64,000 bases of DNA from an uncultured Clostridia bacterium (GTDB lineage Bacteria; Bacillota; Clostridia; Oscillospirales; Ruminococcaceae). The position numbers and the translations under genes were made by a program. The DNA lies in assembly GCA_945829235.1 (NCBI GenBank), contig CALZUA010000003.1, forward strand, positions 124,001-188,000, given 5' to 3'. Positions 2,429-4,801 of this stretch are shown in pieces; the first letter of the stretch is position 1, and every line of letters starts with the position of its first letter. The notes under the pieces were generated by a model, which was given only the letters and a program-made list of their open reading frames with translations, made no database searches and had not been told where the DNA came from.

Positions 2429-2615
2429 AGTAATTTCCTCCTGTTGATTTATTTTGATTTGTAGGCTCACCTTGTGATTTTTGCCTATCTGTTCTTTTAT
2501 ACGATGAAAATTCCGAAAGGGATAATAATTCGTGAGATTTTTTATAAAACCTGTATATTGATATTAGTAAAACGTCTTCCCGTTTCTCGCAATGGAGCTT
2601 CCACGCTCTCTAATA

Positions 2616-2981
2616 TCAATACCCCCATTTTTTACTCTTTATTTGCTTAATCATTTCTTCCGAACAGGGTATCGATTCGGGTTCACTTTGTCCAAAGGCA
2701 CGACGTAAATTTTCGAGCCTCTCTTTGCGCTTCTCATTATCAAGTGGGTCTATTCTTTCGCGCGCTTCTTCAGGTATTTCCACGTACTTAATTATTAAGC
2801 CGCCCGCCACTGCTTCTGCCTCATCATCGGATATCTCGCCGTCGTTCAGCTTTGCGAAAAGCTCCTGTGCCTCGTCAGCGGGAATTTCCGCGCCGTTTGC
2901 CTTTGCCATTTCGACAAGCTCCTCAACCGACTTTGCTGCTTTGAGCTTTTCAAGCAGTTCCTTCATATTTTCGTTTTCCAT
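2616..2981 (-). CDS. Nif11-like leader peptide with long (about 58 aa) charged C-terminal region
   Basis: MENENMKELLEKLKAAKSVEELVEMAKANGAEI...EAVAGG-LIIKYVEIPEEARERIDPLDNEKRK... Confidence 0.8.
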   Translation of the reverse strand: MENENMKELLEKLKAAKSVEELVEMAKANGAEIPADEAQELFAKLNDGEISDDEAEAVAGGLIIKYVEIPEEARERIDPLDNEKRKERLENLRRAFGQSEPESIPCSEEMIKQIKSKKWGY

Positions 2982-3162
2982 AGGAATTCCTCCTGTTGTT
3001 TGATTTTTGCCTATCTGTTCTTTTATACGATGAAAAATCCGAAAGGGATAAAAAATTCGTGAGATTTTTTATAAAAACTGTATAAAAAAACACGCCGTGT
3101 CCCAAAGATTTGGAACACGGCTGAGTGAATCTTGAATAGGGATAAAAAATTCGTGAGATTTT

Positions 3163-3486
3163 TTAAAAATACCGCATATACTTAACCATTTCATCTGAGA
3201 TTTGTTCCGGATGATCCTGTAGATACTGACCCGCAAGAGGCAAAGCTATCGCCGCTATCTGCCCCAAAACTGATCCGCCTGCAACAGCGTCAAGCTCCTC
3301 TTCCGGGATCTCTCCGCTCTGCTTTGCTGCTTCAATCATAAGTGCCATGAACTGCTCCGTTGTGCAGTCCACTTCGTTCTCTTTCAGGAACTCTCCGAGC
3401 TTCTGTTCGTCCTGAATGCCCGCTAACTTTTCGGCAAGCTCCTTGTTTGCAATGACCTCGTTAAAAAACTGTTCGATTGTCTTCAT
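3163..3486 (-). CDS. Divergent Nif11-like leader peptide (type B), hydrophobic core SVLGQIAAIALPLAGQYLQDH...
   Basis: MKTIEQFFNEVIANKELAEKLAGIQDEQKLGEFLKENEVDCTTEQF...EELDAVAGG. Confidence 0.75.
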   Translation of the reverse strand: MKTIEQFFNEVIANKELAEKLAGIQDEQKLGEFLKENEVDCTTEQFMALMIEAAKQSGEIPEEELDAVAGGSVLGQIAAIALPLAGQYLQDHPEQISDEMVKYMRYF

Positions 3487-3784
3487 AGTGATTTTTCCTT
3501 TCTAAATAAAAAATTTTTTTGCTGCTGTCAATCATTACTGACGGCAGTTTGATAACAAACTTGTGCAGGGGTTCGTCCTGCGTCCGGTTTCCGCCCGCAG
3601 CAGCGTCAAACTCCTCTTCCGGAATCTCGCCGCTCTGCTTTGCCTTTTCAAGAATAAACGCTTTGAACTGCTCCGTTGTGCAGTCCACTTCGTTCTCTTT
3701 CAGGAACTCTGCGAGCTTCTGTTCGTCCGAAATGCCCGCTAACTTTTCTGCAAGCTCGATAAGCTCCTGCGCCGGAAATGCGCC
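3461..3784 (-). pseudogene. 5'-truncated/chimeric type-B Nif11-like peptide lying in frame immediately after the stop codon of the upstream array gene
   Basis: Frame reads (TAA)GAFPAQELIELAEKLAGISDEQKLAEFLKENEVDCTTEQF...EEFDAAAGG-NRTQDEPLHKF...; no ATG; GTG at 3688 is the only candidate start in the track. Confidence 0.6.
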
Positions 3785-3988
3785 TTAAAAGAACGGGTTA
3801 GAACCTCCGGCAATCTTTTCAACATCTTCGTCTGAAAGCTCTTCCTTTGCATTCAGCTTTGCGAAAAGCTCCCCCGCCTTGTCGGCGGGAAGCTCCTTGC
3901 CCTGGGCCTTTGCCATTTCGACAAGCTCCTCTGCCGACTTTGCGGCCTTCAGCTTCTTAAGCAACTCCTGCATTTCTTTGTTTTCCAT
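3785..3988 (-). CDS. Nif11-like leader peptide, core SNPFF
   Basis: MENKEMQELLKKLKAAKSAEELVEMAKAQGKELPADKAGELFAKLNAKEELSDEDVEKIAGG. Confidence 0.85.
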   Translation of the reverse strand: MENKEMQELLKKLKAAKSAEELVEMAKAQGKELPADKAGELFAKLNAKEELSDEDVEKIAGGSNPFF

Positions 3989-4178
3989 AGTAAATTTCCT
4001 CCTGTTGATTTATTTTGATTTGTAGGCTCACCTTGGGTGATTTTTGCCTATCTGTTCTTTTATACGATGAAAATTCCGAAAGGGATAAAAAATTCGTGCG
4101 AATATTTAAAACTTTATTTTGATATTATAAAAACCACACATCGTGTTCCAAATCAAAGAATCAGAACACGGCTGATTG

Positions 4179-4514
4179 TTAATAATTTGAAAATTTAGTA
4201 TGGCTTTCGATGATATCTTGTATTTTGTTTAATTTCGCAAGCGCATCCAAAGACTTCTTTGCCATTTTGTAATTAAGTTGTTCTTTCCAATAATAATCCC
4301 TGGCCCAATCCACCCACTCCTCATATGTCATGCCGCCCGCAACAGCGTCAAGCTGCTCCTCGGAGAGCTCGCCGCCGTTCAGCTTTGCGAAAAGCTCCCC
4401 CGCCTTGTCGGCGGGAAGCTCCTTGCCCTGGGCCTTTGCCATTTCGACAAGCTCCTCTGCCGACTTTGCGGCCTTCAGCTTCTTAAGCAACTCCTGCATT
4501 TCTTTGTTTTCCAT
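4179..4514 (-). CDS. Nif11-like leader peptide with about 50-aa C-terminal region
   Basis: Leader near-identical to 3785..3988 up to LDAVAGG, then MTYEEWVDWARDYYWKEQ... Confidence 0.85.
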   Translation of the reverse strand: MENKEMQELLKKLKAAKSAEELVEMAKAQGKELPADKAGELFAKLNGGELSEEQLDAVAGGMTYEEWVDWARDYYWKEQLNYKMAKKSLDALAKLNKIQDIIESHTKFSNY

Positions 4515-4548
4515 AGTAAATTTCCTCCTGTTGATTTATTTTGATTTG

Positions 4549-4576
4549 TAGGCTCACCTTGGGTGATTTTTGCCTA
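4549..4576 (-). promoter_or_regulatory. Conserved 5'UTR hairpin TAGGC-AAAAA-TCACC-CAA-GGTGA-GCCTA
   Basis: Same sequence also before genes at 3785..3988, 1..178 and (with shortened loop) 2177..2428. Confidence 0.5.
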
Positions 4577-4585
4577 TCTGTTCTT

Positions 4586-4614
4586 TTATACGATGAAAAT
4601 TCCGAAAGGGATAA
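4586..4614 (-). promoter_or_regulatory. Promoter-like element TTATCCC-N15-CGTATAA upstream of 4179..4514
   Basis: Same element with identical 15-nt spacing at 2497-2525, 3023-3051, 4060-4088 (minus), a TATACC variant at 4648-4676 (minus), and at 4773-4801 (plus). Confidence 0.6.
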
Positions 4615-4647
4615 TTTTTTTCGAAAATTTTTTGCCTTTCTGTTTCT

Positions 4648-4676
4648 TTATACGAATGATTTTCCAAGAGGTATAA
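4648..4676 (-). promoter_or_regulatory. Second, tandem promoter-like element (TTATACC-N15-CGTATAA)
   Basis: Reverse complement of ttatacg...ggtataa, 15-nt spacer. Confidence 0.5.
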
Positions 4677-4772
4677 TATTTTTGAAAAAAATTGTAGTTT
4701 ATGAAGAAGGGCGAGTTGTCAGGCGTGAATACAGAAAAATTAAAAAAAATTCCGAAAATTTTCTCAAAATTA

Positions 4773-4801
4773 TTATCCCGCCGCTCGTTTTCATCGTATA
4801 A
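4773..4801 (+). promoter_or_regulatory. Promoter-like element TTATCCC-N15-CGTATAA driving the divergent NPDTG protein gene
   Basis: TTATCCCGCCGCTCGTTTTCATCGTATAA on plus strand about 65 bp upstream of the ATG at 4866. Confidence 0.6.

Follow-up and report, generated by a model that had tools for sequence, protein, structure and literature searches.

The closest described regulatory counterpart of the locus reported here is MibX/MibW of the microbisporicin lantibiotic cluster of Microbispora, in which an ECF sigma factor drives the cluster as well as its own operon through GAACC-N15-GCTAC (PMC4973701). NHLP/Nif11-leader clusters were described by Haft et al. 2010 (PMC2887384), a paper in which our word search found sigma factors and promoters unmentioned. 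Partner switching that controls an ECF factor is likewise known, from EcfG-NepR-PhyR (PMC8999054). A link between ECF factors and Nif11 was unreported in the literature that we searched (open-licence papers).

We analysed a stretch of 64,000 nucleotides from an uncultured Clostridia bacterium (the whole stretch is called the window), the genome to which it belongs, and related loci. We think it likely, with good confidence, that the element TTATMCC-N15-CGTATAA is the ECF-class promoter of a dispersed regulon which comprises the production and export of double-glycine (Nif11-leader) peptides and the sigma gene itself, with the factor called ECF-A here as its likeliest reader. The system would have in common with MibX an ECF-controlled lanthipeptide cluster with autoregulation and the 15-nt geometry, whereas the MibX system is that of an actinobacterial class I lantibiotic with a membrane anti-sigma factor, MibW, and the boxes, the organism, and the partner protein are different here. 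The mibA precursor operon is without the ECF motif (PMC4973701) while the precursor genes here carry the motif, and Nif11-type leaders and a dispersed regulon are further differences from MibX. With the NHLP/Nif11 clusters the locus shares double-glycine Nif11-type leaders, the NHLP ABC pair (TIGR03796, TIGR03797), and LanM, but, unlike the clusters as described by Haft et al., it has a promoter/ECF system tied to it. Unlike in EcfG-NepR-PhyR, the candidates for such a switch here are SpoIIE/RsbW/STAS-type proteins, which only a minority of loci have. The flagellar FlgM type offers an analogy only, that of a small protein which bears a signal-like segment and has a sigma factor and an exporter for neighbours; the exporter here is an ABC transporter, and the anti-sigma role of the small protein is putative.

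Copies of the element in the window

An earlier note on this DNA had claimed six copies of TTATMCC-N15-CGTATAA, and exactly six are present in the window (Table 1), with none in 100 shuffles; one of them, placed by the note at 4608-4586, was off by 6 nt and truly spans 4614-4586. The distances from element to start codon are 71, 71, 41, and 68 nt for the array genes and 133 nt for the copy at 4676. Across all 11 sites with an assigned start (assigned by eye or by script), the start codon lies 32-133 nt downstream on the same strand. The copies at 2525, 3051, 4088, and 4614 sit within duplicated cassettes that are 77-88% identical over ∼280-310 nt and have near-identical spacers; because the cassettes are so alike, the sameness of these copies is mostly a matter of duplication. 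Since four of the six copies thus belong to one cassette type, they come close to a single observation and only three of the six are independent, the copies at 4676 and 4773 being counted as such for their different spacers. Following the -10 box, a conserved stretch like ACAGAAAGGCAAAA, presumably the transcript start, was noticed at the window copies 2525, 3051, 4088, 4614, and 4676, as well as at L011:6055 and 9060, at L022:1529 (minus strand), and in L213 and L216. At 3130-3150 of the window, GGGATAA (TTATCCC when read on the minus strand) stands alone, with no -10 box, and is perhaps the remnant of a cassette promoter.

The genes of the array encode Nif11-type precursors, and no exact copy of the element was found between the precursors of the part at 1-2155. 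The TIGR03798 cut-off is passed by two leaders on contig C23, and the array genes of the window score just below it; the NHLP transporters pass TIGR03796 and TIGR03797. A Nif11-type leader with a GG motif and NHLP peptidase/ABC transporters are thus both present, as in a Nif11-leader (NHLP) system. The surface protein encoded divergently from the array is, in this genome, probably controlled together with it, as had been proposed, given the exact motif upstream of its gene. The further suggestion that it serves the array as an immunity or receptor protein found no support, for the homologues examined were without the motif (it was absent upstream in the examined loci of relatives) and a weak WG repeat was the sole match. 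The minus strand of the window encodes another NPDTG surface protein at 56979-58901; it has a matching stretch of WG repeat, and its gene is without the element.

Table 1. Coordinates of the element copies, sigma factor genes, and peptide genes (window positions unless a contig or locus is named).
Feature	Position	Strand	Remark
Element TTATCCC-N15-CGTATAA	4586..4614	-	5' of array gene 4514-4179
Element variant TTATACC-N15-CGTATAA	4648..4676	-	Tandem, 62 bp upstream of the 4586..4614 element
Element	4060..4088	-	5' of array gene 3988-3785; duplicated cassette
Element	3023..3051	-	5' of array gene 2981-2616; duplicated cassette
Element	2497..2525	-	5' of array gene 2428-2177, possibly also genes beyond
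Element	4773..4801	+	64 nt 5' of the surface-protein start codon
Nif11-type leader peptide precursor	4179..4514	-	Double-glycine site AGG
Nif11-type precursor	3785..3988	-	Core SNPFF
Second kind of Nif11-like precursor	3163..3486	-	MKTIEQFFNEV...
Terminator-like hairpin with T tail	3094..3121	-	Between array units
Nif11-type precursor	2616..2981	-	Long C-terminal part
Nif11-type precursor	2177..2428	-	Core LFFFQFSFMKRDINTNGFN
Rest of array, Nif11-type precursors	1..2155	-	Starts 2155, 1887, 1595, 1349, 1013, 747, 438, 178
Secreted cell-surface protein	4866..6347	+	Ends NPDTG; weak WG repeat
ECF-A	L011:6787-7281		Contig C23; exact motif in operon upstream region
ECF-D	L009:16818-17264		Contig C3, 2.6 kb before window start; exact motif in operon upstream region
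Exact site	C3:107850		73 nt 5' of lanM, then four Nif11-type precursors and a GNAT gene
Exact site	C3:121519		5' of eight-gene run
Exact site	C23:40055		5' of two Nif11-type precursors, 62-aa ORF, ECF-A
Exact site	C30:6515		5' of 17-aa ORF with ribosome-binding site
Near-match TGATACC	C6:41526		Directly 5' of double-glycine peptide gene
Near-match TATTACC	C23:43060		Directly 5' of double-glycine peptide gene

Sites elsewhere in the genome

The genome-wide motif search for which the earlier note had asked returned 10 exact sites in the 3.23-Mb genome and none for the reversed-pattern control, with 0.06 chance matches per genome on an i.i.d. estimate. The eight-gene run on contig C3 encodes, in order, a 63-aa ORF, ECF-D, an HlyD-like protein, the NHLP transporter ABC1 with its peptidase, ABC2, a STAS protein, a SpoIIE-type phosphatase, and an RsbW-like protein. 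When up to two mismatches were allowed, 51 matches stood against 41 for the control, which is near background, and we therefore extended the regulon by two near-matches only; a spacing of N16 with one mismatch, which serves as a control on spacing, gave no enrichment (4 against 5 in the control). All 12 accepted sites, the two near-matches being accepted partly for their gene context, lie 5' of the 17-aa ORF or of genes for peptides, export, modification, regulators, or surface proteins. The regulon is much wider than the array and the surface gene that are visible in the window.

The 17-aa ORF on contig C30 reads MIDYLGKRFYNRLNSLF and is followed by a hairpin (L012:6515-6720); no counterpart of it was found in 40 relatives. 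The near-match on contig C6 (L022, C6:41498-41526, minus strand) precedes small double-glycine peptides that are not of the Nif11 type, ELSEEELSAVTGG and ELSDDDLSAVSGG. Contigs C27 and C29 of this genome appear to carry copies of one NHLP/ECF region in opposite orientation with identical scores, perhaps through assembly or a real duplication.

Relatives and the wider footprint of the boxes

Related clusters with the order SpoIIE-RsbW-...-HlyD-ABC1-ABC2-small ORF-ECF-Nif11 array were found in the relatives G002, G005, G007, and G010, each with TCTAACA-N15-CGTATAA at the corresponding operon start. In the close relative G018 the exact element lies 5' of lanM and TTTTACC-N15-CGTATAA lies 5' of the ECF-D operon, and in G003 an exact element is found 3' of an exporter gene in an ECF-A-type cluster; several of the relatives are incomplete genomes. 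We then scanned GTDB species genomes with the ECF alignment and obtained 80 loci with ECF relatives, nearly all from Clostridia, in which the footprint test is independent of the original finding because the loci were picked by ECF protein and not by DNA motif. Non-coding CGTATAA in these loci is oriented, with 35 sense occurrences against 4 antisense, and it ranks first in frequency among 420 words of the same composition in sense-strand non-coding DNA (31 against a mean of 5.7). C at -18 together with C or T at -17 was present at 16 of 23 non-redundant promoter-position sites as against 7 of 51 coding sites (Fisher p = 4e-6), a signal that peaks at that one offset. The exact CGTATAA is missing from many of the 80 loci, and the box was absent from the examined 800 nt upstream of the other ECFs in NHLP clusters of the L132/L145/L150 type. 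In other Clostridia the same two-box geometry is frequently seen at related ECF loci, and related sigma factors with related promoters very probably occur across many Clostridia.

The boxes also vary in step with the sigma factors. The region-4 recognition helix of ECF-A, SYPNAKVIHKKAL, pairs with the -35 box TTATCCC; a VRxLQ helix pairs with a CTAAC -35 box (G002, G010, and L223; by clade G174, G318, and G103), CTAAC-N16-CGTATAA being found with VRxLQ helices in four relatives; and the helices SYAYVKVLQNKAF and SYSYVKLLHTKAL pair with GTAGCC and TTGGCTC, respectively. TTGGCTC-N15-CGTATAA is the form of the element in two cultured relatives that share this locus type, Eubacterium sp. 14-2 (L162) and Sporofaciens musculi (L163). 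The CTAAC group forms a single, fully supported clade, so that its pairing counts as one evolutionary change. The sister clade of ECF-D (L204, L213, L215, L216, and L218) has the ECF-A-like helix SYPNxKxLHKKAL and the -35 box TTATCCC with a different -10 box, CAACTTA, which also lies 5' of several Nif11 genes of that clade; in L209 the -10 box is CAACTTA and the -35 box has diverged. That the two boxes change independently is what speaks most strongly for a sigma factor of this family as the reader of the element, and against a dimeric operator.

Which factor reads the element

With two short boxes at a fixed spacing, placed upstream of a sigma operon and of target genes, the element has the layout of an ECF-type promoter. 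The proposal of such a promoter and a dedicated alternative sigma factor gains indirect support from the motif upstream of two ECF operons and from the same geometry at related ECF loci. Among about 40 ECF/sigma-70 model matches above the cut-off in the genome, the exact element was found upstream of only ECF-A and ECF-D, each of which lies in a Nif11/NHLP cluster. ECF-A (164 aa) matches Pfam Sigma70_r2 with 60 bits and Sigma70_r4 with 46 bits; ECF-D matches Sigma70_r4 with 34.5 bits and TIGR02937 over the cut-off, its r2 match of 21.5 bits being below the cut-off. Regions 2 and 4 with no regions between them place the factors in the ECF class. Proximity and its own motif-bearing operon would favour ECF-D as the reader of the window elements, in the same promoter class, with ECF-A confined to its own cluster, and the reading frame of ECF-D is kept in G018, where ECF-A was not detected. 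We nevertheless hold that arrangement to be somewhat unlikely, for ECF-D departs from 38 conserved columns at 12 (including D35A, W61L, K146E, and H149N) as against 3 for ECF-A, which keeps SYPNAKVIHKK; its dN/dS between this genome and G018 is raised, at 0.59, where four genes nearby have 0.02-0.23 (simple counting over 148 codons), and its sister clade uses another -10 box. ECF-D appears degenerate, either decayed or repurposed, and the reader of the element is most likely ECF-A, acting in trans on the window. From the 12 departures, the raised dN/dS, and the CAACTTA box of the sister clade, the simplest history would be a decay of ECF-D in this lineage, with its targets adopting the CGTATAA box of ECF-A. 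As G018 has the sites and ECF-D, and ECF-A was not detected in that genome (only 73% complete), ECF-D may alternatively have changed its own -10 specificity.

Two readings dispense with an ECF factor altogether. The TATAA(A) within CGTATAA looks like a -10 box, and duplication of cassettes has spread four of the six copies, as would be expected if housekeeping sigma-A promoters (-10 TATAAA) had merely been copied along with the peptide cassettes; we judge this improbable, as both the TTATCCC box and the CG that precedes TATAA are kept at unlinked, non-duplicated genes on other contigs and the elements have no TTGACA-like box. In a sigma-70 consensus scan, the six elements were not among the results, and the sigma-A reading was rejected. 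Far-fetched, in our estimate, is a dyad-symmetric operator made of inverted TTATMC half-sites for a dimeric regulator, such as the LytTR response regulator that adjoins the ECF-D operon together with a histidine kinase. The copy at 4676-4648 is indeed nearly identical on both strands (the plus strand gives a two-mismatch match), but in relatives each half varies on its own, giving CTAAC with CGTATAA and TTATCCC with CAACTTA, so that the symmetry is lost, and for this we rejected the palindrome; LytTR homologues are found in only 9 of the 80 loci, and the strand bias of CGTATAA is strong.

Under the preferred reading, that of an ECF-class promoter read by ECF-A, TTATCCC would be the -35 box and CGTATAA the -10 box, 15 nt apart. 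A signal would free ECF-A, perhaps through the SpoIIE/RsbW/STAS module, whose role we infer from operon membership in that minority of loci, or through the small ∼62-aa protein. RNA polymerase with ECF-A would then initiate at the element (binding and start sites both being predicted), raising the operon of ECF-A by positive autoregulation along with lanM, the exporter, and the genes for the precursors, with a separate promoter for each array cassette, and the surface protein at 4866 would rise together with the peptide genes. The ABC1 peptidase would cut the precursors after the double glycine before their export. Such cleavage by the peptidase of ABC1-type transporters is established for the transporter class.

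Large sets of Nif11-leader peptides occur in many gut Clostridia. A two-box code that can be read from the recognition helix would allow the members of such regulons to be listed genome-wide, including tiny or odd peptides that escape annotation, and such regulons could be switched on by expressing one sigma gene. Related ECFs with altered -35 and -10 boxes are also a natural experiment, one that bears on sigma-promoter specificity and on the hand-over of regulons between ECFs.

The small protein beside the sigma factor genes

A protein of ∼62 aa is encoded within ∼0.5 kb of the ECF gene in 71 of the 80 loci, mostly within 120 nt, and several of the nine loci without it lie at contig ends. Its consensus is LFDFQKFxxNxRLxxxIxxTESRYxxxLSDDDLExVNAAG, for which Pfam and NCBIfam returned nothing credible. 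An HMM built on the protein was run on 298 genomes of the order and matched in 9, all nine having an ECF match at the same locus. In several loci (L154, L167, and L171) a CGTATAA element lies directly 5' of the gene for the small protein even though this gene follows the ECF. The end of the protein resembles the end of the Nif11 leader over 16 aligned columns (E = 1.8e-4, probability 48%), a likeness that, judged on the alignment, is a shared motif rather than demonstrated homology, and the GG of the leader is replaced by AAG in nearly all of these proteins. Two helices followed through into a disordered tail make up its predicted structure (mean pLDDT 74, pTM 0.37). An export-coupled anti-sigma factor or an export sensor is a possible role for it. 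More specifically, and in our opinion rather doubtfully, it may be an anti-sigma or sigma-activity factor with a decoy leader, which the exporter titrates or cleaves so that sigma is released when the exporter is free; the C-terminal LSDDxLExVNAAG would then mimic the leader end LSDDxLExVAGG for the exporter peptidase or a leader-binding site. If true, the decoy-leader protein would be the ABC-transporter counterpart of the FlgM export checkpoint.

In L131, L139, L142, and L144, an ECF of the same broad family was noticed in a conserved cluster beside large conserved genes with no assigned function. These clusters also encode a 79-aa protein (IFDYSRFEPS...) which is somewhat like the ∼62-aa protein.
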